Shown piece after piece: positions 29,332-61,418 of a DNA stretch of 64,000 nucleotides. The position numbers and the translations under genes are program-made. The stretch spans positions 186,001 to 250,000 of the forward strand of contig JABLUY010000006.1 of assembly GCA_013306675.1 (NCBI GenBank), read 5' to 3'. The DNA is from Thraustochytrium sp. TN22 (Eukaryota; Sar; Bigyra; Thraustochytrida; Thraustochytriidae). The notes beneath the pieces were generated by a model. It searched no databases. It was not told the DNA's origin and worked only from the letters and a program-made list of their open reading frames with translations. Each line of letters starts with the position of its first letter. The first letter of the stretch is position 1.

Positions 29332-29734
29332 TTCTGCCCTCTTGCCTTGCGCGCCCGTTGCACGTCGGCCGGGCCTGGCTGGGCCGTGGGCTCGACCGGC
29401 AGGCAAATTCCGGCGGCCAGCCCCAGGCTAGGCTACTGGCCCGCCCGCCTGCGCGCGGAGCCGCCCGCGCGCGCGGCCGCCCGCGCGCTCCGCTCGGCCT
29501 CGCGCAGCCTGGCCCGCTCGGTTTTGCTCGGCCTCGCGACCTCCGGGCCCGCGCGCATTTGAATTTCAAACCTCGTACCCGGCCGGGCCCGAGCCCGCCG
29601 CGGAGTCCGAGTCCGAGTCGGAGTTCGAGTCCTTCTTCCGCGATTCGGACGGGGACGACGACTCGGAGGTGCGCGAGCGCGTTGACGTGCAGCAGTGACC
29701 GCAGGCTGCGGCGCGGCAGCAGAACATCAACGCG

Positions 29735-29790
29735 GGCGCGGCGCGGCGCGGCGCGGCGCGGCGCGGCGCGGCGCGGCGCGGCGCGGCGCC
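29735..29790. repeat. GGCGC pentamer tandem array
   Basis: About eleven near-perfect tandem copies of GCGCG/GGCGC register, ending 120 bp before the desaturase ATG. Confidence 0.85.
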
Positions 29791-29911: not shown

Positions 29912-32227
29912 ATGGCGAGCGCGGCGACGGCGGCGACGGCGGCGCCGCTGAGCGCGACGGCGGCGGCCGCGGCGCAAGCACAGCAGGCGAGCGCGACGAC
30001 GACGGCGGGGCCGGCGGCGCTGTCGGTGGCGGCCTGGCAACGGCGCGCGAGGGAGAGCCTGCCGTTCAGGAGGTGCAGGCGCGACGTGCAGCGCGTGGTG
30101 ACGGAGATGCGCCGGTGCGAGGACGCAGGCATGCACCGCACGTGCGTGTACATGGCGAGGTGGGCGCGCGCGGAGCTGCAGGAGACGCAGCGCCGCGAGG
30201 GCGGCGGGGCGCTGCCCTGGATCAACGAGCTGAGGGCCTCTGTGGAGCTGGCGGCCGCCGAGGCGCAGCTGGCCCTGGGCCAACTCAGCGGCGCACTGCA
30301 GGCCGCCGACCGCGCCGCGGCGCTCGAGCCGGATGCCTTCAGCCTGGCGCGCGCTCTGCAGATTCGCGCGCACATCATGGTGCTCATCGGCGCAGACCGC
30401 GTCGCCGAGGAGACGCTGCGCGCCTGCCTGGAGGCGCTTCAGGGCGGCTCGCTACGACAGTCGCTTGACGGCGACACGCTCGCGCCCGCCGTGCTGCCGC
30501 CACTGCCAGACATGGACATGACCTTCAGCGCCGCGGACTGGCACCGCACGCGCCGCAAGGTCATGCTGGAGCGCCACCCGGAGATTCGCACGCTCTACGA
30601 GGTGCGCTCCACACCGCCCGGCGAAGGCCTGCGTGAGGCGCTCCTTCTGTTGGGCCTCTTTGCAGCGCACGCGGCGCTCGTTGTGCTCGTGGGCCATCTG
30701 CGTAGCGTGCTGGTCGTCCTGGTGCTGTCCGCGACGGTGGGCGCTGCGGCGGCCTACGGCTTCCAGGCGCTCAACCACGACCTGAGCCACGTTACGCGCT
30801 TCCCGGGTGTGCGCTACATCGCCATGATTCTCTCGTCGTCCTTTTGCGTGATGCCCTGGGCCATGTACTACCAAAACTATCACGCGGTCCACCACGCTTT
30901 CACTGGCACCGACATGGACCGCGATGGGGATATCCTGTTTCAGCCGTGGTACTCGCCGCCGAGCTTTGACCTGCTGTGGAACCGTGCGCAGCCTTGGCGC
31001 TCGCGCGTTGTGTTGAAGCGCTGGTCGGAGTTCTTCAACGAGGACGAAAACGGCATGCTTGGCATGGGCCCGGCCCCCGAGGACAAGGACGAGGCCGCGG
31101 ACAGTGGTTTGCGCGCGGAGCAAGAGGATGCCTTTGAGCACTACAACGTCGACCTGGCCAGTCGATGGCAGGCGCGTCTGCTCTGGGCGACGCTCGTGGC
31201 GGCTTTCATGTACCCGATGTTCTCCGTGCGCAAGCTGCTCCTCGATCGCGCGCACCGGCCCATGGTGCAGTACGAGGGACTCATGCTTGTGGCGCAGCTC
31301 TTCGCGTGGCGCGCTGGCGGGTTCTACTCGCTCTTTTACGTCTGGCTCGCCGGCGCCTTTTCTCACGGCGCCTTTTGCCACCCGTACTTTGGGTTCTGGC
31401 TCATTCAGCACGAGAATTGCTGGCGCCAGCCGCGCCTCGACGAGGCGCTGGCCCAGTTTAAGGACGCTCTCAGCCTACACAAGACGCTCCGTCCGCAGCC
31501 GCAACCCACAGTATCCTACTCGGGCTCCTCGCTCTGGCACTACGCAAACTTTGGCGAGCTGCAGCACGTGGAGCACCACGACTTTCCCATGGTGCCCGCC
31601 CGGCTTTACCCGGCCTTGCGCCGCCTCGCGCCCGAGTTCTTCGAGCACCTCGAGCACCGCGACAGCGTCATGACGGCGATTCGCGGCTGGCTTTTCGCGG
31701 ACTCGGACGAGGACTGGATGCAGGCGCACGGCGACTTTGCGCGCCGCGACGCCTACATTGATGACCTCTGGATGCGCCGCTACCGCTTCCCTGACGACTG
31801 CGACGAAACGGCGCAGGCCCTTTTAGACCGCATCACGCGGACCACGGGCCAGCTTCCGTCGACGCTCGCCTCTTCTTCTGGCGCCTGCGTTGCCTGCTCC
31901 CTGCCGTTTCGCCCTGTCGCGCGACTCTCCAACGGGCTCACCGTCGCGCGTGGCCTGCGTCTCTCCTGTGGCTGCTACGGAACTCCGCTCCACGTCGCTT
32001 GCGGGGCGGCCATCAAGGCTTGCCCCACCTGCGAGCGCTCCATCGCCGGCACGCCGACCATTTGCCTGCTCTCCCACGTGCACTGCTGTTTGGCGTCCAC
32101 CCCGTGTAAGGACTGCACGCTCCTGCGTCAGGACCCTTCACGTCGCCCGCTACTCTCCGCCATCGCTCCGGCATCCTGCACGGCGTACTCCAGCTATGCA
32201 TCTGGCCCCAAGCCGCATAAGCGATAG
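29912..32227 (+). CDS. Sphingolipid delta-4 desaturase-like enzyme fused to N-terminal helical (TPR-like) and C-terminal RING-like regions
   Basis: 771 residues. The central part matches membrane desaturases of the DEGS (dihydroceramide desaturase) type: a short N-terminal motif (RHPEIRTLYEV), hydrophobic segments near 245-310 and 420-500, and three His boxes: HDLSH (289-293), HAVHH (324-328) and HVEHH (552-556). The last sits in an EHHDFPMVPA context like DEGS proteins. The reaction would be O2-dependent desaturation of an acyl or sphingoid chain at a di-iron site in the ER membrane. Residues about 45-190 form helical repeats (LGQLSGALQAADRAAALEPD) resembling TPRs. After residue 655 a Cys-rich module follows: C659, C662, C686, C688, H694, C697, C704, C707, a RING-like spacing. 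Typical DEGS enzymes are about 320 residues, so both extensions are unusual. The substrate is not proven by sequence. Confidence 0.8.
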   Translation: MASAATAATAAPLSATAAAAAQAQQASATTTAGPAALSVAAWQRRARESLPFRRCRRDVQRVVTEMRRCEDAGMHRTCVYMARWARAELQETQRREGGGALPWINELRASVELAAAEAQLALGQLSGALQAADRAAALEPDAFSLARALQIRAHIMVLIGADRVAEETLRACLEALQGGSLRQSLDGDTLAPAVLPPLPDMDMTFSAADWHRTRRKVMLERHPEIRTLYEVRSTPPGEGLREALLLLGLFAAHAALVVLVGHLRSVLVVLVLSATVGAAAAYGFQALNHDLSHVTRFPGVRYIAMILSSSFCVMPWAMYYQNYHAVHHAFTGTDMDRDGDILFQPWYSPPSFDLLWNRAQPWRSRVVLKRWSEFFNEDENGMLGMGPAPEDKDEAADSGLRAEQEDAFEHYNVDLASRWQARLLWATLVAAFMYPMFSVRKLLLDRAHRPMVQYEGLMLVAQLFAWRAGGFYSLFYVWLAGAFSHGAFCHPYFGFWLIQHENCWRQPRLDEALAQFKDALSLHKTLRPQPQPTVSYSGSSLWHYANFGELQHVEHHDFPMVPARLYPALRRLAPEFFEHLEHRDSVMTAIRGWLFADSDEDWMQAHGDFARRDAYIDDLWMRRYRFPDDCDETAQALLDRITRTTGQLPSTLASSSGACVACSLPFRPVARLSNGLTVARGLRLSCGCYGTPLHVACGAAIKACPTCERSIAGTPTICLLSHVHCCLASTPCKDCTLLRQDPSRRPLLSAIAPASCTAYSSYASGPKPHKR

Positions 32228-33045
32228 GGAAGGAGACATGTACGAGCACGTGCGCAAAACGCATCATACCAGTAGAGAATGTAAAGAAAGTCCAGCCTGT
32301 AGTAGCAATCAACTTCCCACCAAGCCGATGCTGGCATCCACTGCATGGGCTACCCAGGGCTTGAGACCCGTACAACGATCCTAGCGCAGCTGGCCGCGGT
32401 TCACGCGCAGGCACAGAGTCGTGCACCTCGAATGCAGCGAACGACGCCTCGCCGCCACTCCGCAGCATGGTTGGTGTACGTACGTGACGTGACTGCACCT
32501 GTCCTCGCTCTGACAAGGCTTCAACTTCCGCCTCCCGCACAGAAGCCCCGCACGCGCTGGCACTCTACCTACGGCCTCGCGCCCCTCGCCAACTGCAACT
32601 TGAAGGCAGCTGGTTAGGCCCTGTCACTCGCTGTGAGTCTGTTGTGAACTCACCGAGTGAGTGACTCGTCGCGGCAGGCTACTGTTAGTTAGTATCCAAA
32701 CAACGCACGCGCCGCCCTGCCAGTGGCCGGCTGGCCGTGGCGGCCGTTGGCCACGCACGGCAGCGCACTGACCGTGGCGGCGGTCGCCGCTCCCGCAGAG
32801 CCCGATCGCGCGCGCGGTCGGCGGCGCAGCAGGCAGCGGGCGAGGCCTTGCCGCGCCCCGCCGCGCCCGCGCGCCCGCGCGCCTGGCCGCGCCACGCGCC
32901 TCGGCCACGCGGCGAGGCGAGGCGGAAGTGGGACGCGCGTCCCAGCGGCGAGGACGCGCGCGCATCGAGCTGCGCCTCGCGGGCGGAAGCTAGCGCGCGG
33001 CGCGCGGCGCGAGGCGCGAGGCGCGAGGCGCGGCTGGAAGGCGCC
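32228..33045. other. Intergenic region and leader of the SAM-domain gene
   Basis: 818 bp between tandem plus-strand genes. No gene is seen. It holds a GTACGTAC self-complementary site near 32476-32483. The frame of the next gene is open back to about 32737 but without convincing coding character. Confidence 0.45.
33001..33035. repeat. GCGAGGC heptamer array before the SAM-protein ATG
   Basis: Tandem GCGCGGC and GCGAGGC units end about 10 bp before the ATG at 33046. Confidence 0.7.
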
Positions 33046-39469: not shown

Positions 39470-42400
39470 ATGCTGGAAAGCGTGGTGGCAGGCGTGCTCA
39501 ACCGGTCGCTGGGATGGCTGGTGGACGACCTGAACGCCGACAACCTGAGGCTGGCCATTTCGAACGGGAACATCTTCTTGCAGGATGTCAAGATCAAGGC
39601 GTCGGCGCTCAAGGATGCCGGGCTGCCACTGGACCTGGCCTACGGCTCGCTTGGCAAACTGCGCATAAGCATTCCGTGGACCAATCTGTACCATGCGCCG
39701 GTCCGCGTCGAAGTGGATAACGTGTATGTGCGGCTCAAGTGCGTGCTGGCGGAGGACGCGGCCGCGGCGCACGGCCAGGAGGACAGGGATGCGCGCAAGG
39801 AGCTGCTGGAGCACCTCGATGCGGCGCGCAAGAAGGCGCTGGACGACTTCCAAAGGGGGCTGCGACCTACACCTGCGGAATCCTGGTCCGGCAGGATCAT
39901 CTCGGGCCTCACATCCGCCATGCTGCAGAACATGATCCTCACCGTGACCAACGTCCATCTGCAGGTGGACCATCAGCGCGAAGACTCGGGGCGCCCCTTT
40001 CAGATCGGCCTGGCGCTTCCCGTGCTCAAGGTCCTGCCCATGGCAGCTCCGACCCAGCCCCAGGCGGAGAATGGCTTCGTGCGAAAGGTCGCCTCCATTG
40101 AGGGTCTGCGCATGTACCATCGCGAGCCGGAGGTGGCTAACGTGGCGCCGCTCGACATCTTCGACCCCGAATCCTACGCGGAGGACGGGGTCTCTCTCAT
40201 TCTCGAGCCGGTCGACGTGAACCTGCAGATCCCGCAAATGCACGTTGCTGGCCCACCGCCCGCGTCCACACCGGCGCTGGAGCTGACCGTGGACGTCAAG
40301 CGAGTCGGACTGCAGCTGAGCCGCACGCAGACGCGCGACGTGCTGGCGGTCGCCAACTTCTGCAGCCGCGAAACCGCAGTTCTCACCAGCGCCTGCAAGC
40401 GGCCGCGCGAGCGGCCCTCGCGCCGGCCCAGGGAGTGGTGGGTCTACGTGGGCCACTGCGTGCGCGAGCAGATGCGCGCGCGCCGTCGCCGCACATCCTG
40501 GCTGCGTGTCGCCAAGCTCTTCGCCAAGAGCCAAGAGTATGCCGCCGTATACCGCCGCAAGTTCTCTCAGGGCGCCCAGAGGGTGGATCAGCTCCAGGGC
40601 AACACGCAGCTCTCCGCGCGGGACAAGGCGCGCCTTCAGGAGCTGGAGTGCATCCTCACCAACGACGAAATCATGGCTTTCCGCACGCTTACCGAGCTGC
40701 GTCTCGTGCACGAGTACAGGCTCGAGCAGATGGAGAGCTTCTCCCACCGTTACTTTGGCCTCGGCGGCAGTCCCGCCGACAAGATTCGCGCCATCGGTGC
40801 GCAGAATGCCCGGAAGGAGGCCGCCGAGTTCTACTCGCATGACGCTCGGCCTGCTGACGATGTCATTCAATTCGTTGTGTTCGCCGCGGTGCACGACTGC
40901 CGTCTACAGTGTGAGGGCCTCCTGACGCTCGACATGGAATACCTCGCCACCAAGGCCAAAAAGCAGGGCTACCAAACCAGAGGCGACGTGCAGTTGCTTG
41001 ACCTCTGCATCAAGGCCGACCCCCGCGTCTCGAACGTGGCCAAGATCCTCCACTTCCCTGACAAGATCATCGGCACACCCTGCTGTGAGGTTTCCTTCGA
41101 GCTTCATGACGGACAGGACGTGCAGAGTGAGATCTCCGTGGACGTGGAGGCCTTTGAACTCTGGGTCGACGCGGCGCTTCCGCGCGCTGTTGAGTTTTAC
41201 ACGGGTATCTCCCTCCTGGAGTCCTCGCATGTTATCAACGACGACGACATCTTCATCGAGGAGGTCCATAATATGCGCGAGTACAACAGCGCGACGCACC
41301 GGGACGCGCGCCGAGCGCTCACGGCCTCGCGCCTCGCGATCTCGCTGCGCGAGGTTAGGATGCTCGTACCCACGCCAACGCCGACCAGGGCGTCCGGGTC
41401 CGCGGCCTCGGTTCAGCCCCGTTCTACAGCAGCCCCAACCAACGCGCAAAACGCCCTCGCGCTCACGCTTACAGATGCCAAACTGCACAAGACGGACGAC
41501 CCAGAAGCCTGCGTGTCCCATGTGTTCCTGGCCTGTGAGAGCGCTGGCGTCTCGCTCCTCGATGTTGTGCCGGCCGAGTCATGCGTGCTCAAGGGCGTCG
41601 GGGACGTTGGTTTGCTCGCGCCCCTCCGCTTCCAGGTCGACGTCAGCATGAGCCTCTGCCCGCAGGACCCTTCGCAGGACCTTCTTGCCATAGCTGTGGA
41701 CATCCCAACTCCAGCTCGGCTCACCATCGCCTCGCGCTCGCTGCATCGGGCTCTTGTGCTCGCGCGCAGCGTCGAGGTCGCGCTCAATCTGCCCACTACA
41801 GCGGCGCCGTCGCGGCAGGCTGGCGTCTCGCGAGAGACTGTCGACATGACCCAGACGGAGACGTCGAATCTGGCGCAACGCGTGCGCATGCGCGTCGAGG
41901 CCAAGCTCGCCAGCCTGGTCCTGGAGGTCACGGCGTCCGACGCGCAATGCGGCCTCTCCATCTCGCTACACGAGGTTGCCATTGATCAGGTCCAGCGCAC
42001 CTGCGACACGCAGGTGCGAGTCGTCATGGAGACGTTCTGCCTCGCCGGCATGAACGGAGTTGTGAATGCGATCCTGCTCAGCGACGTTGCCGTCTGGCGC
42101 AACACGCAACTGCACACGCGGCCGTCGTGGATGCCCGTGGCTGAGTTCATTGACAGCGTGCCGGACGTCGAGGCGCCCAACGTGGATCAGGCCGTCTTCG
42201 CCAAGCTGGGGACCTTGCGTGTCTGCATCGAGGACCAGCTTGTTGGCTCTACGGTGGCCCTGCAGCGCGAGTTTGAGCGCTACTCGAGCGCTGCGTCCTC
42301 GTCCTCGTCCTCGTCCTCCTCGTCCTCTGCACCAGCGCCGCAAGGAGCATCTGCGCCTCCCGCGTCCAGCTTCGTGTGCGGCAAGCTCGCCCGCATCGAG

Positions 42401-45400
42401 GCCTGTCTGCGCCGCGCGGACGATACGTCCGACGTGCTTGTGCTGCGCCTCGCCGCCATCGAGGCGCAGATGCAGGACATGCAAGGCAAGCTCTACGGCG
42501 ACCAGAGGGAGCCGGACAACGATCTCTCTGCCTCAGCGCGCATTGGCGCCATGCGGGCCTTTACTGGCGAGGTCCAGTCGGCCGAGGGCGTTGCGTGGAC
42601 AGGCGAGTCCTGGCCTGGCGACCACCTTTGCAGCGAGGAATGGTCACAAGTCCGCCTCGCGGATCCCTTCGCGGCCATCGAGGTCACGCGCGAGGAGGAG
42701 GGCGGCCATCACAACGTTGCTTCCACCATCAAGAGCACCCGCTTGCACCTGTCGGCGCCCTTCCTGGCCAACGTGCTGGACTACCTTGGCGAGCTCGGCG
42801 TCCTCATGGCGCCCGTGCAAGAGCAGTCGCAGGGCCGGAGGGTTGGCCAGTCGACGAACTCGCGCGGCGCGTTGGCAGCGAGCGAGGACGCCGCACGACC
42901 GCGCCAATCGTCCTCTGCAGCCGCTCTCTCGCAGGGCGCAGAAATAACGCTGCGCGTGAGCGACATCATCGCGCTCGTGCCGCGTGATCCAGGCGCAGGG
43001 GAGGCCTGGCAGGACCGCGACATGGTGGCGGCTCGTTTCGACAGCTTCATCATGCAGGGCTCCTTTGGTCCGGGCCGCCTGGGCACGGCCACGGACGCTA
43101 GCTCGCGCCGCGAGTCCTTGTACTCTGACCCGCCCGCTGACGTGGATGAGGCCGGTAACTTCTTTGATGCCCTTTCTGCTCCCTGGGATGAGGAGACCAG
43201 CTTTTTGGACGACGAAGCCTTCGACGTGGCGTTCACCGGCCAGGCTTCCATCACTAGCCTCGCCGTGGAGACCTGGATCTTTGAGCGCGACATGTACCAG
43301 ACGCTCGTGCGCTTCTCAGTGGCCGCGAACGTGCAGTCGGAGCCCAGCCAGCAGCGCCTGCACCTCACGATCATGCCCGTCACACTATCCTGCTCGCAGA
43401 TGCAATACGCGCTGCTCCTCGACACGCTTGCCACCAACGACTTCGCTGGCGCGCTCAGCTCGGGGCCGCGGGCCGCCTCGACTTCACCCGAAACGCCTGA
43501 TCCGTCCGGCACGCATGACGACTTCCGCTCGCTGCCAAGCCCGCCAACGCCACAGCCGCAGCAAACGCCGGTCAGGTCATCGGCAAGACGGCGCGCGTCG
43601 AGCATGGATCGTAGTACGGGTCGGCGCCGCAGTTCAGTGGGAACCTCGCTTCCGCAACAGGCTTCCATCTCGCTGGAGTGCAACGTCGAGTCACTCACCC
43701 TCACTCTTTTCAAGGACGCAGGCGGCGATCACCTCCCGCGCCCCCGCGACCGCAAAAAGGGCCAGGCCAAGGCGTCGCGAGACCGGTACGCGTCGCATAG
43801 CGAGCTGCTTCGCTTTGTGCTGCAAGGTGCGGTGGCCGGCTTCGAGCGTGAGACCTTTCCGGACGATGGAATCGGCAAGGTTGCGCTGCAGCACGTCGAA
43901 CTGACCACTTTTGCGTCGGGCCGACGTCACAACGCCCTGCGCTCGGACCGCGAGCCCTTCTTCGAGACCTCCTTTGCGCTGCAGGACGAGGCCGTAGAAG
44001 TCGAGGGCCGCCTTGCGAACATCGCCATTGACACTTTCGAGCTGCTCTCTGCCGTGAGAAGCTTTTCGCAGGTCCAGCGCTACCTGCACGCGCACGAGAG
44101 CGACGAGTCCGCCCTCGCCGGAAGCCACACCGGGAAGCCGGACGCCGTCGCGGGCTCCGGCCCAGCGAGCCACAGCGCGGACGACTTCTTCGCCGCATAC
44201 GCAGCGCAAAAGTCCGCGCCGGCGAGTCGCATCGAACTGCCGCGGAACGCGCGTGTCCACATGGCCTGCGAGGACATCTCTGTGTCGCTGTCCCCGAGCA
44301 CGGCGCTGCAAAAGCTCGTGCTCTCGCTCTCACTGTTGGCCAGCGCCAAGGTGAACAAGGACCGCGACGCCTCTCTCGGCCTTGCCGTCAGCAACGTGCA
44401 GCTCGCTCGCTGTATCTCGACGTCCGCCACGCAGCACGAGGCGCGCAGCTTTCTACTGCGCCCCCTCTCCATCAACCTGCACGTGGACGTACGCATACCT
44501 GGGGGGCACGCCCCGGAGCTCACGCAGGACGTCATCGTCGCAGACCTCGACATGGGCAGCGTGCGTGTTGAAGTGGGCAAAGCCGACGTCTTGCTGCTCC
44601 ACCGGGCGACGCAGGCTGGAAACACGTCCGCATCTCTCGAGCATGCAGACACCGCAGACGCCGCCCCAGCTGCTTCTGCCGCGCCCGGCTACACGCCGGC
44701 GCCGCCGCCAAGGCAGCGCGAGGTCAGCTTCCGTATGCGACTCGAGGACTCCACAGTGGTACTCTTCGAGGACTGGGCGGAGTTCAAGCCGCCCATCGTA
44801 CAGGCCCGCCTCGAGCACTTCTCGCTGTCCGGAGCGCAGTATGACCTTCAAGGCGAGCACGCGCAGACGCGGGCTGACCTTGAGTTCTCGCTCTCTGCGT
44901 CCTACTGGAACCGGCGTCATGGCGCATGGGAGTCCATGGTGGATCCTTGGTTCTGTCACCTGGGCCTCGACAGCCCGCAGTTCATGCAAGCTGGCCCTCG
45001 AGCCCGCTTGCTGCAGACGCTCGGATACGATAAGGACGCGGCCGTGGCCCCGCTGCGGCTCGCCTCTGCCGCGCTTCGGCTCGAGTCGCCGCAGATGCTC
45101 AACGTCAACGTCACGTCGACCGCGATGCTGCAGTTGGAGAAGGCGCAGCAACTCGTCGACATTAGCGAGATCGACGACGACGACGAGGATGAAGATGCCG
45201 ACGAAGGGGTGCTCGGCACGGGCGCGACCTCGGGCGATCTGATGCGCGACCATCACGACGAGCAGGACCTCATCGTGCGCAACACCACGGGCTCGAGTCT
45301 GCGCGCGCGACTCCTTCGCGTTGACGTGGCGTCTGAGGGCGGCTTTTTCGGCCCCATGGCCGGGGAGCGGCCTGTGCCTGGCCTCCGGCGCGCGCAGATC

Positions 45401-48400
45401 GTGGGTTGTTGGGCGTACAAATCGGACTCGACCGGGGCGTTGTGGAGGGAGCGCTACATTGCTTTGGAGGGAGGCGCCCTCAAGTACTACCACGACATGA
45501 ATGCTTTCCGTCAGGGCAAACCGCGGGGCGTCATCAAGCTCAAGTCGGCTTCGCGTGGCGTCTTTGTCCGCGTGCAGGGCATCCTCCCGCCACGGCTGTA
45601 CCGTGGCCCGAGACTCCTGCGCGAGTGCGCCTTCCAGGTCGTCACACCGAGGCGGACGTATGCTTTCGTGAGTCTGACTCTCGAGGACAAGGAGCGCATG
45701 GTTCGCGCGTTGCTAGAGGAGCTCGAGATGGAGGTGGAGCCCGTGGGCCGCGACGTTGAGGGCTCGAGCGGCATCAATACGCTACCCCGCAAGGTTCTCG
45801 CGGTGCAAACGTGCAAGCGGGAGGCCCCTGTTCAGCTCCTTCTCGACGGCCATCACGCGGAGGTGCACGAGGCCGACGTGGAGCTCGGGAATCACGCGGA
45901 GCCCGAGACGCCTGTGCCGCTGCTGTCCGTCGACCTCCGGGACTTTTGCCTGCTCCGCGACCCAAGCGGCGACGCTGGCAAGCTCGACCTCGTCGGACCG
46001 GACTTTGTGCTCTCCAGCTGCGCGGCGAGCGCAGGCGACGACGACGACAAGCACTCTGGGCAAGCTGCACTCCGCGACGCACTCGCCGCGCGCATGTCTC
46101 CTCGTGCGACGCGCAATGTCGACGAGGAACATGCAAGGAACCCCGAGGGCGAGTTCATGCGGCTTCGCTATAAAGCACAGATGCTCGCGTCCCCACAACT
46201 GGACGTCGCGAGCATGCGCGTGCTCTTACTTCCGACGGGCGGTGAGGCGTACACCGAGGGCTCCTGGACGCCGACCGGGTCGCTTCAGGTGCCTGCCACG
46301 CGCGAATCATGCGCGCGCGACCAGGTGGTCCGTTTGGACCTGCTGGATGGCGAGGGGAGCTTGCTGGGGTCCGCCTGCATGGCGCTCTCCCCGCCGCGGC
46401 ACTCCGAGGACCTCCAGCGCCAGGGAGAGGTCCCTGTGTATCAAGTGTCCGTGGAGGACTTTGGTCGGGCCGACCTCCACAAGCCGATCGGGAGTCTTTG
46501 GATTCTCGTGGAGCTCTCCGCGCCGCTCCTGCCCGAGTCGACGCCTGCGGAGGGCCCGGATGTGACGGCAAGCGAGGCACGCCCCGGTGCCGATGTCTCA
46601 CTGACCCTTGCCCAAGAGGGCACCCGCCGCGGGGGCGACTCGCACGACCGCCAGGCTGTTGCGCTGGTCGTAGATGTGGATGGCTATGCCGAGAGCGCCG
46701 CCGTCCCCATCGCGCGTGCCGGGCGCTTCGTGCTCCCGTTGAGGCCCCGCGCGAGGCCGACGCACGCCAGCTCGCTTCACGCGTCGCGTATGCTCTACAA
46801 CGCGGACGCGAACACGGTCCGCATGGCCATGGTTGACATCCACTTTGAAGAGGGCGCGCGACTTGCGGAGGTGTCTTCCTGCGTCTCCATCAAGAACAGG
46901 CTCCAAGAGACCGTCGAGCTGCATTATGAGCGGCTCGAACCGTGCCCGCCGCGCCGGGAGAACGGCGCTCCCGAGGGCGCCTCGGTGCATGCGTTCGACC
47001 AGCGCATCGACACAGAGTGGATCGTGGCAGCCGGCAAGGAGGGCATGGCGGAATATGTGCTTCCAGATCCATCGGAGCCAGCCTCGGTCGCCATGTACTC
47101 GGTCGTGTCCGGGCTGGACGGCAGCGACGCTCCGCGCGACTGGGTACTGCAGGGCCACGGCACGGACGGGCGGTGGGAAGACATCGACGAGCGTCGTGGC
47201 GTTGTGTACAGCGCGCCTCTGCAGGTTCGCAACTTCGCGATTCGCGCCGATCGCGTCAAGGCGTTTTCGCGCCTCCGGCTTCGCATTGAGGCCGGATCCC
47301 GCATTGGGAGCGGCGGTGCCGGCCGCACGAATGCCTCTCACGCGCCCAGGAGCGGGCCGCCCGCCGTTCCGAGCAGCAAGGTTTCGGTGGGTAACGTGAT
47401 CTTCTTCGCGAGGTCCCAGGGCGAACCTTTTGTGCGCGACGTGGAGTTGCGGCCGGCGGAGACCTCGCACGTTCCGCTGGAGTGCTACGGGCCCGGCGGC
47501 ATCCTCTGGATCGGCCAGGGTGATCCGATATGCATCCGCGAGCTGCTGGAGATTGGGCCCCGCGGCTTGTCCAGCGTGGTCGCGCGCAACTCCAAGCCGC
47601 GGTACTTCCCGGCTGACCTAGGACTGGAGCGGGAGGCGGACGAGACCTCGAGGCGCTTCTGCGTCTTCCACGTCAGCTGCCACCAGCTGCGCAACGTGGC
47701 TCGCTCGCTGAGCGAGCGCGACGGCGCGTCGCCGTACTGGGTCGTGACGCTGGATCCGCCTATGCGCGTAGAGAACGCGCTGCCGCACGCCATCGAGGCA
47801 CACCTCGTGCCTCACCGTGCCGAAGACCGGGGCAAGCTCGTGGCTGCCGACAGCGATTCGAGCGATGGGTGTGTCGTGAGACGCGGCGATGTGGAGCACT
47901 TCTTCAGCGTCGACCCAGCCATTGGCACGCAGGATGCTGTATGGGAACAGCGCGACAGCCAGGGTGCCCTCGTTGACGCGGTGCGGCTGCACTTCGCCAT
48001 CCTGCAGGCGTCGGGCCGTCGGCTAGAGTGTGACGTGCAGGAGGCGCCCGTAATCTTTGGCAAGGGCCATGAGGCGCGCTGCCGGGTCGCCGTGGGCGAT
48101 AGTGACCTGGCCATTGAGGTTCAGGTCATCCCGTCCTCGGCAAAGGAGGAGCGCGACCCAGACCACCAGCACGTGAACGTGGACGCCGACGCGGACGAAG
48201 ACGAAGCGGAAGATGAGCTGGTGGAGTCGCTTCTTGGCGGCGGGTCACCTGCTGCGCGGGCTGCGGAGTCCGGAACGCCCACGACGAGCGCTCTGGGTGA
48301 GATGTCCGCGGCAAGTGGGAGCTACCTGCGGGCGTCCTCGCCCACGTCGCATTCTAGCGGGCTCGTTTCGCCGCTCTTCAGCGCACCAAGTGACAGTGGA

Positions 48401-51400
48401 GCGGAGGACGAGCAGCCGACAACGTGGAATGGCCCGATGCCGTCCCAGTGGCGCTCGAGAAGCGTGCCACCGCTGCGCGTTGTTCTTTACTGCAAGTTCC
48501 TGGTGCTGAACTGGACCGGCCTGCCGCTGATCTACGCGGGAAAGAAGCCGTCGTCTGCTTCTGCGGGCGCTGCGCGGTCCAAGGCTGTGGCGCCGCGCGG
48601 GAGTGGGAGTGGGAGCGGTGGCGAGGACGGGTGTGAGGGCGAGGAGGAGGGTGCCGAGGAGGAGGAGGAGAGCAAGCTGGAGCGCATCGCTCTGCATCAG
48701 GGCGCCTCAAGGACAAAGCATGCCGCGCGCGAGCTGGTGCGCATCAGCATGTTTACGCCCAAGGATGACAAGATGTCGGTCTCGCTCCCTGGCGATGCGA
48801 GCGGGTGGTCGCGCGATTTTGGTCTCGTGGTCGGCATGTCTGGCGAGGTGAACATCCCCCCCCGCCGCCGGCCACTCGGTCGTGCATCAGGTGGGTGTCC
48901 AGGTTGCCGGTGGTGCAGGGATCTTTTTGCGCACCAGAGTCGTCTCCCTGACGCCGCGCTTCGTCGTGGTCAATATGACCGGACGCACGATCTCTTTGCA
49001 ACAGGTTGGGTCACCGGAGGACGAGTGGCAGCTCGAGCTCAAGGCCGGCATGCTGACGCCCTTCCACCCAATCGACGTGAACGGCGACGGTGCGCTGGAC
49101 GACAAGGACTTCTCGGCCCGCATTGGCGCGGCCAGCGGCAAGGAAAGTTCACAAACGCTGGTGTCGCCGCACTTCCGGCTTGACATTGTCAAGGAACATC
49201 TGCTGCTCCTAGGGCCGCGCGACGAGCGCCCACCCCCCCTGGAGGAGTGCACGCCCGAGACGACGCTGGCCGCGCCCGTGGGCGCGCGCGCCGCGAGCGG
49301 GGCGCAGGCGCCCTCGCGCGGCAGCAGCTTGCTCATGGCGAACGTGGAGCTCGTCGACAACGTCGTGCGCATCATGGTGAGCGAGCCCCCGCGGTCGCGC
49401 GCCCTCGAGTATCGCGTGGACAACCAGAGCTCCTTCGTACGCGTGGGCGTGCTGCAGCATCGGCAGCCGCACCGCACGATGCTCATGGTGGATCCGGACG
49501 AGGAAGCGCGCGAATTTGTTTGGCCAGATCCGAGCAAGTCGCATTCGGTGGATGTCCACTTCGAGGCGATCGGCTTGGAAGCGCTGCAGCAGCACCCGCG
49601 CACGCAGCGCACAAGTCTGAGTCTCAACTTCGACACGGTCCGAGACCCGCTGCGCGTTTCGGCGGGCGGCGTGCACATTGAGGTCCGTGTCGTTCTGGAG
49701 GGGATCACCCGCGTGCTGGTCATTAGCGACCTGGCCGAGGCGCGCGCACGCAACCAAGTGCGCAAGGCGCTGCAGGAGCAGATTGAGCGCGTTGAAAAGC
49801 GCGTGATGGAGAACCGCAAGTTTTTGCTGGGCAAACTGGTCCGCATCGACTGCGAGTTTGCGCTGCGCGGCGATGGCCAGGACTCGGCCGCCGCGATGGA
49901 CGGCGACCGGTTCACCTCATGGCGAAGCGCTGCGCCGCCCGCAACGCGGACGCGTCTCGAGTGTGACGCCAGCAACGTTGGCGCGCCTCTCAGTATCGAG
50001 GCATACGCCTTCACTGTGGCAAACCTCTCTCTGCACCCGCGGCGATGGAAGCTGCTTGGCCACCGCTTCGGCGCGGAGGCTACAGCATGGGAGGTGCTCG
50101 ACGACCGCAGCGACGCCGTCGTGCGCAAGAATCTGCGCTACTACGAGGTCTCGCAGACTGCGCACGATCACCTGACGGCCTTTCGACTGCCCGAGGGCTG
50201 CCCGCCGTGCGATCGCTTCAAGCTCGAGGTGGAAGGCCCGTTCGAAGTTCGCCACCTGAGCCTCTTCCGCTCGCCGGTGGCGCTGGAAGGCGCGTCCAAG
50301 GCGACCGGCGGCGGCCTGCGCCTCTGGGTGTCGGTGCTGGAGGCGCGCGACCTCTCGGTCATGGACCTCTTTACAAGCGACCCCTACGTCTGCCTTGCGG
50401 TCGGCGGCACGCGCGCGCGGACGCGGACGGTACCTCGGTCCCTGCAACCCCTCTTTGATGAGGAGTTCTACTTTGACGTACAGGACGCGGACGATGCCGT
50501 TCTGGAGCTCGAGGTATTCGACAAGGACTTCTTCACGAGGGACGACCTCATGGGCCAGGCCACGGTCCCGCTTTCGAGCGGCAACCTCCGGCGCGGGCTC
50601 CCTGTCGAGGCCTGGGTCGCGCTCCAGGACGCAAAGGGCGAGCGGCAGAGCGGCCAGCTCCGGCTTGCGCTCCAGCTCTTTTATGCCCCGAGGAACGGTG
50701 TCTCCGAGCATGACGAGGCCGATGAGCGAGAGGAGCCGGAGTTTTCCGACGCTGAAGACGGTGCCGACGAGGATGACGGGCCCGAAGTGGCCACCTCAGC
50801 GGCGCCCCACCTGGAGCAGGTGCGATTTCCCGTGCTCTTTGAGCAGGAGTTGCACCTGCTGCGCTCGCTGCGCGAGAAGCTCGTCGTGGAGGGCGGCGTT
50901 CTTCGTGGCCTCGGCCACCATGGACGAAGTTCCATTGGGCCATCGCTTCAATCTTTCTCCTCCGACGCGCCCTGGGCGCGCCCCTGGAGGCGCTACAGCT
51001 CCACGTCGCCCGCGCCTGTTGGCGCGGAGACGAGTCGCCCGGAACACTATGGCGCTTCGGGCGCGCACGCGCCCCTCCGACTTCAGGACCTCGATACGGA
51101 CGTGCAGGTGAAGCTGAACCTGACGGTGCTCAAGGCAGATGAGGTGGTGAACCCCTTCACGGTCGGGCTCCCGCGTGCCTCCTCGCGCAGCGAGCCCGAA
51201 GAGCCGGAGATGTACTGCGTGGTGACCTATGGCGAGAAGGTTCTTCGCACTGACCCGGTGCGCGCCAAGGGCCGCGCCGGGACGAACGAGCCGGGCGCCG
51301 CCTCGCAAGCGCACGCGTATCGCTCGGAGAGAGCCGGGCCGCCGCGCACGTCGACCCAAATGTACGAGTTTGAGGAAACCTTCGAGGAGGAGGGCCCAAT

Positions 51401-54400
51401 GGGCCTGCAGCTTCGAGTGGGCTTGGGCGGGAGCTTCCGGGTCCGCACGGTGGCGTCCGGGAGCCCCGCCTCGCGCAAGCCGCGCATTCGGCCCGGTGTG
51501 CGGCTGGTCGGCATCCAGAACACTCGGCTGACGCCTTCATGGGGCCTGGCGGCGCTGCGAGACCTGCTCAGCACTGCGCCACGGCCGCTCCGCTTACGCT
51601 TCCAAGAGGACATGGTAGCGGTGGAGCCCGAGGTGCTGCCGACGGCACGGGCGTCGGAAGAGGCGGCGGCGGACCAGACCCTCGCGGAGGTCTCGTGGAT
51701 GCAGCAGCTCACCTTTGACGAGGCGGATACCTTGCGCGCCCGCGCGCGCGAGGAGTCCGGCGCGATGGGCTCCGAGATGGAGGGCCGGCGCGTGCACGTG
51801 GCGCTGTACGCGCGCAACCCGCGCAGCGCGGCGTCGCTGGAGCTCTCCTCAACCGGCGAGACGGACAAGCAGCTGCTCGTCCCGCTGCTCTTCATGTTTG
51901 GCGAGGACGTCGAGCTGGACAGCGAGCTGAACATGGTCAGGCGTATGTACGGCGAAAAGGACGTGCTGCTCGGCCAGGGCACGATGCTGCTACCGGACCT
52001 GAGTGCGAGCGCCGCTTCCCGCATTCCGGCGCGCAAGGTGCTCCGGTGCCCTCTATGGCGCTCGGACAACACGCCGGCAGGCACGCTGGCGGTGGAGACG
52101 AGCTGGGCTGTGGCGGCGCCCGCGCCCGCGGAAACCATCAGCTATGCGGTGGACGTGCGTATGGCGGGTTTGGGCGTCTCTCTGGTGGACACGGCGTCGC
52201 GCCGCTGCGAGCTCGCCTATCTCTCGCTGCGCCAGCTGCAGTGCTACGTGGCCCAGCATGGGGACGGCCGACAGGTGCTCGACGTTCGACTGGGTGCCGT
52301 GCAGGTGGACAACCAGCTGCCCTCACCGGTGCACCCGATCGTGTTGAGCGCGGCGCCCGCGCCCTTTGAGTGGCTGGCGCGGGAGGAGTCGTGCCAGTCG
52401 ACCAAGTTCGTGCTAGGAGACGCTCTCGAGCGCGCACGCGAGGGCGTGTGGTCGCAGCCGGCCGTCCTGTTGACGCTCGTGAAGCGCGACCTGGGCGTCT
52501 CGTCGTCAGTCTACGTGGAGTACTGTGAGGCGTTCCTGCAGGAGGTGAACGTGCGGCTCGAGGAACGTTGGCTCACTGCGGTGCAGGAGTTCATGGCGGC
52601 CATCTCCACGACGCAGCAGGCATCGAACGGTGCCTCGAGCATGCTGCGGGCACGCAGCCGCGACAACGGTGCGCGCGGCGCCAAGCGGACCGCGGAGCAG
52701 CAGGGCAGCGAGGCCAACGGGGGCGGCAACAAAAATAGCAACGGCACCAGCACCAGCAACGACGATATCGACAGCCGGAGCAGTAGCCGCGGTGCGATAG
52801 ATGTGGACAAGTTGGACGTGGAAACGGCATCTGGGCGGTCCAGTCCGACGCGGCGGCGCAAGGGGCGGCGCAGCGAAAAGCAGGCCATTTGCCAGGCGTT
52901 CTCGAGCTCTGCGCCCTTCGATTGGGTGGTCGGGCTGTCGAGGGCCGGACGAAGCGGAGGCGAGGGCGAGGGCGGCGGCAGCGGCGGCAGCGGCGGCAAC
53001 GACGACGAGATGAATCAGGAAGCGCGCGCCCGCATTTTGATTGAGCGCGCCGACCTGAAACCGGTCAAGATCAACCTGACATTCACGATGACATCGGACG
53101 TGGAGTCGCGCGACGACAACCGGCTCAAGATCATGCACCTGATGCAGGGCATTCCGGTGCTAGCAGCGCTTTTCAGCGCGCTGGTGAACACGGTGGCAAA
53201 CATCTCGGACGCGCCGCTCCGCTTTAACGCGCTGCAGATCTCGAACGAGAGCCTGTCGCAGCGTATGCTGCGCAACACCTTCGTGCAGCACATCATGGGC
53301 CAGCTGCTGGGCAATCTGTCGCAAATGGGCAACCTCTTGGCGTCGGCGGACCTGCTGGGCAGCCCGGTGCAGCTGATCGGCAGCTTCGGTCAGGGCGCGT
53401 ACTCGTTCTTTTACGAGCCGGCGTTGGCCATGTCCATGGGCGGCTACCTCTCGATCGGCACTGGCCTGCGCAAGGGCGGCCTGGAGCTGGTGCGCAGTAC
53501 GACGCACGGCGCGTCGGCGTCGCTGGAAAAGTTTGCGGAGTCCGCGAGCCGCGCCCTGAGCCAGGCGTCGCTGGACCGGCGCTTCATCAGGCAGCAGGCG
53601 CGGCGCCGCACGGATGTGGTGCACGAGCCCATCAACGTGGTGGAGGGCACGCTGGCGAGCACGGAGGCGCTCTGCCTGGGCGTTCTGGAGGCTGCGACAG
53701 GCGTCGTAACGCTCCCGGTGCGCGACGTGGCGGTGCGCGGTGCGCTGGGCGCCATCACGGGCACCGGCAAGGCGTGTGTGGGGGTGGTGGTAAAGCCAGT
53801 CTGCGCGCTGTGCGACGCCGCCTCGCTCTTCTTCAAGGGCGTGCGCAACACGACCGAGACGCTGCACAAGCAGCAGCTTCCGGCGCGGCTACCGCGCGTG
53901 CTTCGCGCGGGCCAGCGTGTGGGGCCCTATTCGGTGCGTGAGGCGATCGGCAGCTTCCTGCTGCGACAGTGCGGCATCTCGGACACGCAGACGTACGTGC
54001 ATCACGAGTACGTCTTTGGTGTTCCCATCGCGGGCGTCGCGGCAGGTCTGCTGGACGCGCACGCAGACGACGAGGCACGCTTCGAGAAGTGGGTCGAGCA
54101 CAACCCGCTTGTGCTGCTCATCACCGAGGGCCTGGTGGCGCTCCTCCACATCCGCACAGCCGAGACACTCTGGTGTGCGCCGCTGAGTGCAGTGCGGACT
54201 GCCGGCTTTGGCCGCATGCTGGAGCTTGTGCTGGCTGGCGGGTCGTCCTCGTCCGTGCCGCTCGTGCGGCGCGACTTGGGGCCGCGCCGTGCGCCGCAGT
54301 CTCGCCAAGTGACGCCGGCGGCTGCCTACGGTGCCGATGGCGGCGTCATGCCCCTGCGCATGGGCGTGCGCACCGTGTGCAAGTCGTCTGACGCGGCGGA

Positions 54401-55379
54401 GCACGCCCGGCGTGTTATCGCCCTTGCGCAGGAGGGCGCAAATGCGCGCGAGTACGCAATCTCGCGTGAGCAGCAGCGCGAGCTGGACACCGCGCGTCTT
54501 GCCCTGCAAGACCCGGCAGGCGCGCGGCACTGGGGCGCCGCGGTCGAATCGCACGTGCGAATGACCCTCGAGACCTCGCGCGCGACGCACGCTGACAGTA
54601 TGCCGGGCGCGGAACTGCCGGGCAGGAACATGGAGGAAGAAGAGGACGAGCACGAGGCCATTCATGGGAGCGACAACGACCAGGGCAACGCACGCCAACA
54701 TGGCGACGACGGCGGCGGCGGCGGCGGCGGCGGTGAGAACGACAACAACGCCAATGCCAACGCCAACGCCAACGCCAACGCCAACGCCAACGCCAACGCC
54801 AACGCCAACGAGGGCAAGGAGCAGGCGGTGGATGGCAATGAGACCTCCAGCAGCCGCGAAGGCGACGAGGACGGCTGGGTGGCGGTCCGTGCGACGCCGT
54901 CCATGGTGGCGGCGAACTCTCGCTCCGGCTCCGCGACCTCGGGCAAGGACGAGCAGGAACCGATGGACGCAGTAGCGGGCATGAGCGTGCTCAAGGCCAT
55001 CATCACGGGGCGGCGGCTCACGCTGGCCAAGTCGGGACGGCCCTTTGTGGCGTACAGGGTGGTGGTGGCATCTGCGGAAGGCCGCAAGGTGTGGGTGGTG
55101 TGGCGGCGGTACTCTGAGTTTCGCCAGCTGCGCGACGCGCTGATGCGCAGCCTGCAAAAGTCGCGCACGGCGCTGGCCATTCCAGCGCGTTCACCGTGGC
55201 GCCTGTCCAAGACGTCGCTCAACCAGCGGCAGTACGGCTTGAACTTGATGCTGCAAGAGATGATGAACAATCCAGCGCTGCGCGAGAGCCCGCTCGTGGT
55301 GCAGTTTCTCACGACCGAGGCAGACGTTTTGGGCACGTCCTGGGCGGACGCACTTTTGACGAATGAGCACGACGAATGA
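39470..55379 (+). CDS. VPS13: VPS13 bridge-like lipid transfer protein (two frames joined at a C8 run)
   Basis: About 5,300 residues if one extra C at 48856-48863 is discounted; as written, the first frame ends at 49183 and the second is open to 55379. Domains by approximate residue: chorein_N 1-120 (MLESVVAGVLNRSLGW), long lipid-channel region, PH 1972-2088 (GCWAYKSD...WRERYIALEGG), C2-like about 2240-2350, SHR-BD/VAB region about 2460-3400 interrupted by a discoidin-like segment (PRDWVLQGHGTDGRWEDIDER, about 2540-2610), a second discoidin-like domain 3464-3600 (RRWKLLGHRFG, WEVLDDRSD), C2 3615-3725, PDZ-like 3973-4047, VPS13_C/ATG2_C-like 4523-4810, an Asn-Ala repeat near 5093-5112, and a C-terminal PX domain 5171-5297. 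Known role: moves bulk phospholipid between organelle membranes at contact sites; PH, C2 and PX probably select the membranes. It is convergent with NME7 (69 bp). Confidence 0.93.
48856..48863 (+). other. Run of eight Cs where the VPS13 reading frame shifts
   Basis: Upstream the coding frame reads ...SGEVNI, then the C run. Downstream, VPS13-like sequence (HQVGVQVAGGAGIFL) continues one base later. One C fewer would give a continuous protein, so a homopolymer sequencing or assembly error is the simplest explanation; a true frameshift allele cannot be excluded. Confidence 0.85.
54747..54806 (+). repeat. AACGCC hexamer array coding (Asn-Ala)10
   Basis: Ten tandem hexamers, one with AAT for AAC, lie within VPS13 in the linker before the PX domain. 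The array stays in frame, giving alternating Asn and Ala. Confidence 0.95.
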
Positions 55380-57181: not shown

Positions 57182-60100
57182 TCAGGTACGGTGGTCGAAG
57201 GAGTCCTTGTGGGCAGTGGCGTGGACGTCAACCATGGCGAGCGCCTCCTCTTCGCCCTCCCGGGAGAGGCGAGAGGGTTCGTGATTAAAATTGTCCTGGG
57301 AGGAAGAAGAGGATGAGGGAGACTCTCGGAGACTTGGGGCGGTGACGTTACGCTTGATGTCGGCGAGGGCTTCGCGCATGCTGGCGATCTCGGACGCAAG
57401 CTTGGCGACAAGAATGGCCTGGTCGTCGAGCTTGGCCTCGGAGGTCTTGCGCGTAAGAATGGGGACCTGCTTGTTGCTGGCGTTGAGCTGCGAGACGTTG
57501 CTGAGCAAGTCGGCGAGCTGCAGACCAGCGAGCTTGGTGCTGGGCGCGTCCTTGCAGAGCACGAAGACCTTGTCCACGCGCGAGAGGCGCGTGTCGTGCG
57601 GCGGGTTGGTGTACACATAAGGCACAAAGTTGCCCTTGTAAAACTCGGACAGAGGAGACTGTACGCCGCGGAGCAAGCCGAGCGGGATCATGCCGTACTC
57701 GGTTGCGAGCTGCTCGAAGAGGTCCCCATAGGTCATCTCGTGCATGGCCTTTGGGACCGGGATCTGAAAGAGGTGGCTCTGGGGGACGCCCTCGATGAAG
57801 GCGCGGCGCAAACTGAGTGCGTGCGTGGCATCATCGACTGCGTCGTCCTCATTGGCGAGCCAGGCGCTGGAGCGGCCGGCGCTGGCATCCTTGCCGGCAA
57901 TGAGCTGCTGGAAGACGGTGGTGATATGTGGATTGTAAAAGGACTGGCAGATGAGCGTGTCGAGCATGGACGGCGAGTACACGATGCCTGCGATGAACTG
58001 CAGCGCGCTAAAGTAGTTGGAACTGGCGATGGAGCGGCCCACGGTCTTCTCGGACATGGCATGCTTGACGCGGTTTCTCTCCGCGGACTTCTTCCCGCCC
58101 GAGTTCCCTCCAATGTCGAGGAAGCCGACGTTGGACTCATTGATGAGCTCCGTGACAATCTGGATGTTCTTGTTCAGGCCGATGAGGCCCTGGTGCGCGA
58201 AAATGGCATGGGCATCGCTCATCGTCTCATCGCTGGTGGTACTGTGCGCGTCCCAGGACCGCGCCAGGACAATTGCGCGCGATGCGTAGCGCGCGCCCGC
58301 GCGGATCAGGTCGCGACGCTCCGTAGGCGAGCCCTGTACAAAGCAAATGAGCGGGTAGTGCGCAATCTGATTCCACAGACGAAAGGGCAGTGCTTCCGAA
58401 TGCAAGATGACGACAGGTAGCATCTTGGGCAAATGGCGAGCACGCAGCGTGCGGATGAAGATGAGCAGGCCGCTCAGGTTCCCGCAGACAATGATGTGGT
58501 CCTTGAGCGTCGGGAAGTCGTGCGCGAGCGTCGTCTTGACGGTAACGCCCTCCAGCGGAACGGGCGCGTCAAGCATGAAGTAGTGCTTGGCTTCGTTCTC
58601 CTCCGTGCCATCCTTGGCGTCCTTGGCCGGGTCGCGCACTGGCTGTGCGTTCCTATTGACTGTGTTCTTCAGGAAACCCCAGGCGCGCACCGCGCTCTTG
58701 GATGCGCGCCGCCCTGTCACAGGGTTCTTCTCGTCATCCATGCCGCCATCAGCCTCCGCGTCCTCTGCTTGATTGCCAGCGGCTTCGGGAGAACCCGGCT
58801 TCGCAACAGGTGCGGCGGCGTCGGCCGCCGCTCGCGCGGCCCGCGATCGCGCGGCATCTTGGGAGGACTGCTGGTGCGCACTGAGGTCGATCGAGTTGCG
58901 GCCATCGATGCGCCCGTCGGCGTCGTCCTTGGCCTCGACGATCTGACGCGCGAGCTCCTCCCGCGGATCCCGGCTCCTGTTCGACGTGTACATGCGCGAG
59001 ACAGACCGCTTGCGCGAGAAGGAGGCGCCGAAGCTGCTCCTCTTCCGCGAAGAAGAGGTCTGCATGAGGCGCGCGAAGGCAGCGTCGAGATCGCCGAGGT
59101 CCGCAGCTTCCAGGTCTGGAGCGATGACGAAGCAGTGTACATCGTATTCCTCAACCTCTGGGATGAGGAAGTTGCCAGGGTTCATGATCACGCGCGAGAG
59201 ACCAGCTCCATTCAGCTCAAGTGCGAACATGAGCCCGCCCGTGGCCCCATGCACGATCTGCGATGCACGCGCAAATGGGACGCCCTTGAAGACGCGAGAC
59301 AGCCGCGTGCGGTAGATCTCAAACTCGCTTCCCTCGTTGTACTCCTCGCGCCACTCGTTCCCCGGCTCGTTTGTGCTAGCCGGCGCATCCACGGACATGA
59401 CCAGGTTCCCGATCATGGTGATGATCCCGGGGCACAGGCACGCCTGCGCGAGGAGATTCATTTTGATCTCATTCACGCAAATGAGCGGGTCCTCCTGCAT
59501 TGCGAGACCACCGCGGCGCGCTACCTCGCCGTCCAAGTCACTGATCGCTCCTGCCTCGCTTTCCGCGGCGCCGCTGGAGGCGCGGATGCTGCCCGCATCC
59601 CCTCCGTTTCGTCCGCCAAAGAGGGCGCGGCCACGAAGCGAGTGACCAGCTGACACAAGAGGAGAACCGCCGGCGGCGGCGTTGTTCCCTGCGGAGCCTC
59701 CTCCTCCGTAGGGCCCTGAGCCGGCTGCGTTGGCGCCTCCTGCATTGACGCCACCAGCCTCGGGCGCGTCCAGCAGGCCGTGGTCCTTGATCATGATCTC
59801 GTGGCTCAGCGTGAAGTGCTGCTTGTTCTCCAGCCGTAGCAGCTGCACGCAGGTGGGAATGTCTTGGCCCGTGTACTGCAGGACAAAGCGTTTTATGGAG
59901 AGGGCTCGTAGAATCGTGCCTGCGTCCTCCATATCCGGGTCACTGGTGAACTTGTTGCATAGGAGGAAGCACGTCTTGCAGCGCAGAATGCTTGCGCGCA
60001 GGAGGTCGTTCGCGTCCAGCGGGGAGCCTTGCAGGTAGGTGACGTTCAGCATGTACTGCGTGCGCAGCATGTTTTCAAGCGCCGACGAAGGCAGCTGCTC

Positions 60101-61418
60101 GCAGAGAAGCACCGCCTGGAGGTCGACACTACCATGATCCTCGTGAAAGAGCTCGGTCAGGAAGGCTCGCGCAGCCATGACGTCGAAGGATCCGCACACC
60201 AGGACAAACTCCGTGCCCTTTGGCGGGTTGAAGCGATTTCGTGCATAGATGGACCGCTGAGACATGAGCGAGACCAGGTGGTTTGTCGACTTGGGGATGT
60301 ACACAAGGGCGGTGCAGATGAGCAGGGTCACTGCCAACTTGGAGAGGTCGCTCTCCGGGTTGATGTCGCCGTAGCCCACCGTCGAGATGGTCACGACCAC
60401 GAAGTCTGTGCGTTTGTGCCGGCGTCAGTAAGTACGTCAATGGGTCAGTCGGGAAAAAGGGCGCTTGGACCAGGGAGATGCAGTCTGTGCGCCATTTCAG
60501 AGCGGCGGGAAACGTACACCAAGCCTCATGGAAGTCGAGCATAGGGAGCTGGTGCGACTCGCGGAAGTTGTTCTCAAAGGTATGAATGATGCCGGCGCAG
60601 AAGAACGCGGCTGTGATGATGTTGGTCACCAGTAAAATGAGCTGCTGGCTGAGCTCGGATGTGGCGTTTGCGAGAATGAAGCGGTTGATACGTACGATGC
60701 GCAGCACGCGCAGCACGCGCACGAGCTGGTACGCAAAGGCAAGCTCCGTGCCGGTATCTACAAAGGCAAAGACGACAGGAACAAGCGTGAGGAGGTCAAT
60801 GGATGCCATCGGGCTCCTTATATATTTGAGCCGGTTGTCCGCCATGAAGACCCGCAGTAGGTAGTCGGCGCCAAAGAAAGCGCAAAATGCCACATCGATG
60901 GTCTCAAAGATGCCTTTCAGGTCAGCATCGTACGTCTCCCATACGTACAGCACGCACGAGATGCCGGAGAGAACGATGTTGGTGAGATCAATGAAGAAGC
61001 CCACCCAGGAATTCACCATGATGCGCTGCAGCCAGCGCCGGACACCCATCCCGCTTGTCAGACCGCCGAGGCCCCAAAGAAGGCTCCATAGGATCTGGCT
61101 TGGGCTCCTCCTCGGTCGCCTCGCGTTTGGGGCCACGGAAAACCCACGCTCGGCCAGCTTTAGGAGACTGTTGCCACCGTCGCGCTCGGCCTCGGCCGGA
61201 TGCACGAGTGAGCCTGAACTCCGCTTCTCGCCGGAGCCGCCCTTCACCTCGTTTCTCGTGCGCCTTTTTCGCCTGCCAGTCACATTTGTGTTGATGCTAT
61301 GAAGGTCCTCCGACTGCCGCCTGCCTCTCCTCCCTGGCTTGCCGGTCAGGTCATTCCTGGCGGCGGCCTCTGGCGACGCGTCAGCAAGCCCTGCAAACGA
61401 TGACCGCGGTAGCGCCAT
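57182..61418 (-). CDS. BK (Slo-type) K+ channel alpha subunit with two RCK domains
   Basis: Two exons (60518-61418 and 57182-60405) encode 1,374 residues. The N-terminal 130 residues are basic and presumably cytosolic. S1 is near 138-163, S4 at 226-243 (RVLRVLRIVRINRFIL), and the pore has the TVGYGD filter at 309-314, followed by S6. There is no extra S0 helix as in animal BK. RCK1 begins near 364 (FVLVCGSFDVMAARAFL, QGSPLDANDLLRA, CNKFTSDPDMEDAG) and RCK2 near 935 (HIIVCGNLSGLLIF). Both match BK order, including YTNPP near the end. The position of the BK Ca2+ bowl (after ELINESNVGFLD, about 1052) carries Gly/Ser/Lys in place of the Asp run. Long disordered inserts lie within both RCK regions. 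The function is K+ efflux gated by voltage and/or an intracellular ligand. Sequence upstream of 61418 is in frame but lacks an ATG. Confidence 0.93.
60406..60517 (-). other. K+ channel coding intron (112 bp) next to the pore helix
   Basis: Donor TGGT|GTACGT and acceptor CGCACAG|ACT. Splicing rebuilds the Tyr codon (T|AC) to give EAWYFVVVTISTVGYGD, the pore sequence of the family, so the boundaries are firm. Confidence 0.95.

Follow-up and report, generated by a model that had tools for sequence, protein, structure and literature searches.

A probable DEGS paralogue with a likely helical N-terminal domain and a doubtful Cys-rich tail in Thraustochytrium sp. TN22

The locus and its desaturase core

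An open frame of 771 codons, started by an ATG and nested in a stop-to-stop frame of 842 codons, lies at positions 29912-32227 (+) of a 64,000-nucleotide stretch of the Thraustochytrium sp. TN22 genome (contig JABLUY010000006.1, positions 186,001 to 250,000), hereafter the window. The genome to which it belongs is that of a GC-rich protist and comprises 37.9 Mb in 453 contigs. The predicted protein is probably a paralogue of DEGS, the sphingolipid Delta4-desaturase, and carries what is probably a helical docking domain at its N-terminus and a doubtful Cys-rich tail; both extra modules are unproven.

The desaturase domain occupies about residues 201-600 (30512..31711, +) and scores over the cut-off with the Pfam families FA_desaturase (4.7e-11) and Lipid_DES (1e-5). 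The Lipid_DES motif itself covers residues 211-229 (30542..30598, +), with 25.3 bits against a cut-off of 23, and corresponds to positions 14-32 of the 37 in the profile. Three His boxes are found in the translation: H289DLSH293, of the form HxxxH (30776..30790, +), H324AVHH328, of the form HxxHH (30881..30895, +), and a second HxxHH, H552VEHH, that runs into EHHDFP at 554-559 (residues 552-559; 31565..31588, +). Both halves of the domain carry coding signal, equalled by 0/2000 shuffles each. An earlier note on this DNA had taken the His boxes and EHHDFP as marks of a DEGS-type desaturase and had pointed to the unusual length of the protein. The two profile matches now strengthen the first of these claims, and the second is borne out by a chain of 771 residues, twice the length of the 390-residue ordinary DEGS of the same genome.

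A profile search of the genome returned 13 FA_desaturase stretches, taken as eleven genes, that is the window gene and ten others. We compared residues 200-640 with L001-L008 and with L010 in its spliced form, nine of the ten, leaving out a copy on contig C422. The ordinary DEGS, L010, is the nearest of the nine (blastp 6.8e-6, phmmer 1.4e-11), the runner-up reaching a blastp value of 0.029. It is located on contig C251 (30947-32984; L010 1-2038), where we read by eye two exons and a GTGAGT donor; the intron, in the same reading, has about 120 bases and contains a long GA repeat. The window protein and the ordinary DEGS have H490-P and H500 in common, as well as HHDFP after the third box; in L001-L008, the eight remaining frames, the last box match reads HHLW, HHLF, HHTF or HHMF. 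Because both profiles are over their cut-offs, the His boxes and EHHDFP are present and the ordinary DEGS is the nearest of the nine desaturases compared, the assignment of residues 201-600 to a divergent DEGS-type membrane desaturase is solid at the level of sequence. By the same comparison, the window gene is a second, divergent DEGS copy beside the ordinary one.

The likeness to the DEGS family thus lies in the three His boxes, EHHDFP, the Lipid_DES motif and the hydrophobic segments. Apart from its length and its added N- and C-terminal parts, the window protein differs from the ordinary DEGS by an overall identity of only 25%, by insertions near residues 339-357, 376-418 and 501-524, and by a two-residue insertion before His box 3 in their alignment. 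Its exact reaction may be the desaturation of dihydroceramide at Delta4 or its hydroxylation at C4, both being only putative. A DEGS descendant that has given up sphingolipid C4 desaturation and serves instead as a hydroxylase, or as a desaturase acting on a different lipid, would fit the low identity, the long insertions, the changed approach to His box 3 and the presence of an ordinary DEGS elsewhere in the genome. Against such a change of activity, the Lipid_DES motif and EHHDFP have been kept, and we consider it unlikely, if not strongly so.

Like the cytochrome b5-fused front-end desaturases, the window protein combines a desaturase with an additional N-terminal domain. Two other frames of the genome, L006 and L007, are read as cytochrome b5 fusions by their HPGG motif. 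In contrast, the window protein has no HPGG motif, and its N-terminus is predicted to be all-helical. The desaturase frame of L007 (1-2418, +; contig C399) has at least 805 residues, with a third box QVAHH and a cytochrome b5-like HPGG segment that is preceded by hydrophobic segments.

The predicted helical N-terminal domain

In-frame coding signal is continuous over residues 41-645 and crosses the junction between the N-terminal part and the desaturase without interruption; for residues 41-200 it is equalled by 0/2000 shuffles. The first 40 residues (29912..30031, +) form an Ala-rich, low-complexity start whose synonymous-codon score is reached by 898/2000 shuffles. Because they have no support from codon usage, the true start codon is uncertain. 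Upstream, an acidic Ser/Glu-rich stretch at 29552-29697 (+) lies in the desaturase reading frame and has a high coding score, and a stop separates it from the ATG; it is possibly a 5' exon or a short upstream frame. A perfect 11-copy GGCGC repeat is situated at 29735-29789, about 120 bases before the start codon.

Residues 38-177 (30023..30442, +) are predicted by AlphaFold2 to form antiparallel helices, at 39-47, 50-71, 75-95, 102-138, 142-158 and 162-177. The predicted local distance difference test score (pLDDT) is 72.8 over residues 38-205, and the model is all-helical. The best ten Foldseek rows are all tetratricopeptide repeat (TPR) or TPR-like proteins, from entries of Cyp40, AIP/XAP2, FKBP51/52, Sec72 and Smyd2, the identity of the matched chain being inferred for rows that stem from complexes. 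Of nine shuffled versions of residues 40-200, none had a TPR match. The helical hairpins resemble those of the immunophilin-type TPR domains (AIP/XAP2, FKBP51/52, Cyp40) and of Sec72, which stand out in both the Foldseek and the VIA list. Altogether, the model makes a helical, repeat-like N-terminal domain likely.

Several results set limits to the likeness with TPR domains. The Foldseek search with the N-terminal model gave no significant match (best E 0.40), and its superpositions are globally poor, with a root-mean-square deviation of at least 14 Å. The Pfam TPR matches stay below the cut-off, with 13.5 bits against 27 for TPR_2 (E 0.084) and 13.9 against 23.5 for TPR_14 (E 0.095). One helix of 37 residues exceeds the standard TPR helix. 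Searched alone in the genome, the N-terminus found itself and one match at E 0.20. The helical-repeat N-terminus proposed in the earlier note is supported, though less firmly than the desaturase. The best PDB sequence match for this part, Cre recombinase at 0.15, was taken as chance. An origin from a subunit of APC/C was considered and dropped because APC/C chains rank no higher than 20th with Foldseek.

Translation and nature of the Cys-rich tail

Behind the desaturase, a linker of residues 601-645 (31712..31846, +) still has coding signal (0/2000 shuffles) and is predicted, with very low confidence, to hold two helices. The codon score is clearly positive over residues 61-640, then drops from 0.51 bits per codon at 601-640 to values of 0.02 to -0.16 in the windows of 641-760. 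One of the five 40-codon windows from residue 641 on stands at 0.02 and the others are negative, as are all six 60-codon windows from residue 646 onward. The synonymous-codon score is reached by 687/2000 shuffles for residues 646-705 and by 298/2000 for the last 32 codons (740-771). That 31829-32224 is open proves little by itself, because the stretch also stays open in 4533/20,000 shuffles; Cys codons, moreover, would be frequent in GC-rich DNA read in the wrong frame. All this favours a coding sequence that extends only to about residue 645-655, whether a splice, a slip in sequencing or some unusual end accounts for it, and leaves the Cys-rich stretch untranslated and open by chance.

Other measurements oppose such an early end. 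Over residues 646-771, the GC content of third codon positions (GC3, 0.76) exceeds that of the first (GC1, 0.59) and second (GC2, 0.67), an excess in the same frame that is reached by 113/20,000 shuffles; in the last 32 codons GC3 is not above GC2, and past the stop the codon positions are nearly even. The synonymous-codon score of residues 706-771 is best in the desaturase frame and reached by 6/2000 shuffles, and that of 640-771 jointly by 11/2000, in a test of incomplete specificity: 32620-33009, a non-genic stretch, also passed it in the tested frame (1/2000), with similar scores in other frames. The fall in codon score is unusual yet found in genes, because in six further frames of the window, five of them members of the training set of the score, 11/281 overlapping windows of 60 codons lie at or below -0.05. 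No GTRAG donor occurs between 30633 and 32106, although other GT sites exist. The sole GTRAG within 30634-32632 is the donor-like GTAAGG at 32106, which would allow the last 40 residues to be an intron or an alternative end. Together with the ordered ligands described below, these points leave the early end, in our estimate, a serious contender of somewhat less than even probability. Judged by the sequence, translation of residues 646-771 as a whole is doubtful, and that of the Cys module within them somewhat better than even.

The putative module spans residues 659-707 (31886..32032, +), with the ligand string C659-x2-C662-x23-C686-x-C688-x5-H694-x2-C697-x6-C704-x2-C707. This is exactly the C2-C2-HC-C2 pattern that had been noticed earlier, eight ligands in cross-brace order. 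It is followed by a Cys-containing tail, residues 708-771 and the stop (32033..32227, +), with a CxxC at 732-735. A generous RING/RINGv-type expression, composed after the case was known, matches here alone among the 831 stop-to-stop stretches of at least 40 residues in the six frames of the window. The same expression occurs in 1/20,000 dinucleotide shuffles of 31829-32224, which argues against a chance origin of the canonical order. In that test the greedy match extended to the second CxxC, 732-735, which could equally supply the last ligand pair.

RING-CH ligases have a Trp between ligands six and seven, and their third ligand pair is C-x-C. The window module has this third pair, and shares the order C-C-C-C-H-C-C-C with the C4HC3 fingers of the RING-CH (MARCH/RINGv) and PHD types. 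It differs from both in having no profile match and no Trp between its sixth and seventh ligands, C697 and C704, and from RING-CH in the shorter spacings C688-x5-H694 and C697-x6-C704. C4HC3 is the name given to the RING-CH type of ligand order, and a catalytic Trp is mentioned for these ligases (PMC4897099).

With the module alone, no RING-type family was found in Pfam at E up to 10; the only matches, DUF2256 (0.046) and CxC4 (0.18), are below the cut-off and were set aside. A longer C-terminal piece had no match in Pfam, and an NCBIfam search gave none. The module is absent from the places at which the genome matches RINGv (PF12906; 9 at E up to 0.001), zf-C3HC4_3 (PF13920; 62 at E up to 1, 38 over cut-off) and PHD (PF00628; 42 at E up to 1, 25 over cut-off). 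The AlphaFold2 model of residues 610-771, with a pLDDT of 34.5, is too low in confidence to show a fold or a zinc site. Two further candidates were rejected: a putative protease, the PDB sequence match at 0.6, as chance, and L014, the only match in the genome besides the module itself (E 0.05), as its matched stretch does not look gene-like by eye. If translated, the tail is most likely, at a guess, a small zinc-bound structural or protein-binding module.

The tail could instead act as an E3 module of the RING type. Its target would be either its own enzyme or a partner bound by the TPR-like domain, and desaturation would in this way be tied to protein turnover. The C4HC3 order and the third pair speak for such an E3 module, whereas the absence of any RING-type family, of the module from the RINGv, zf-C3HC4_3 and PHD places and of the Trp, the shortened spacings and the low pLDDT speak against it; we judge it quite improbable. 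The coupling to ubiquitin signalling or self-regulated turnover suggested in the earlier note is thus unsupported, the translation of the tail being itself uncertain. Human Degs1 is polyubiquitinated, in an account whose available part names no ligase (PMC8551130), which makes the ubiquitin idea attractive and favours an E3 module, yet is not evidence for the window protein.

A possible arrangement and the genomic setting

We lean modestly towards a single gene for a divergent, membrane-bound di-iron desaturase of the sphingolipid Delta4 (DEGS) type, with a TPR-like front end that docks a partner and a possible zinc tail. Desaturases usually lie in the membrane of the endoplasmic reticulum with both ends in the cytosol, and the window protein would be placed likewise. 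There it would abstract hydrogens from the chain of a ceramide or sphingoid base, with electrons supplied by cytochrome b5. By docking a partner, for example a chaperone or a further enzyme of lipid metabolism, the TPR-like front end would bring the desaturase to a location or a pool of substrate separate from that of the ordinary DEGS. A fuller scheme would give each part a task: recruitment of a client or chaperone to the TPR-like domain, synthesis of the ceramide product to the desaturase, and ubiquitination of the docked client or of the enzyme itself to the C4HC3 module. Ceramide synthesis and protein turnover would then be set together in a single chain; we think this scheme very improbable.

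A genuine and conserved fusion would represent a DEGS with its partners or its placement built into the chain, and would offer a handle on the organisation of ceramide desaturation in protists. Should the zinc tail, too, prove genuine and active, ceramide desaturation would be linked to ubiquitin in one polypeptide. Among the papers listed on desaturases, no title or opening of an abstract describes such a fusion. In a collection of viral contigs, no stretch matched the whole-protein patterns, and 84 matched those of a two-row DEGS alignment, none of them confirmed. In a collection of genome contigs, 76 stretches matched the two-row alignment and 39 the ordinary DEGS, again with none confirmed. 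The scanned collections consist of viruses and prokaryotes, so this failure to find the architecture says nothing about protists.

The neighbours of the gene in the window match families of eukaryotic type: Rad4/XPC, a nucleoside diphosphate kinase and a Slo-type potassium channel. The kinase resembles NDK7, with the NDK7-specific model below its cut-off. The channel is divided between two overlapping frames, 57182-60265 (-) and 60129-61418 (-), into an RCK/BK part and an Ion_trans part, and the two may be separated by an intron or a slip in the sequence. Two overlapping open frames on the same strand, 39470-49183 (+) and 48975-55379 (+), of 3237 and 2134 residues, are perhaps one giant gene.
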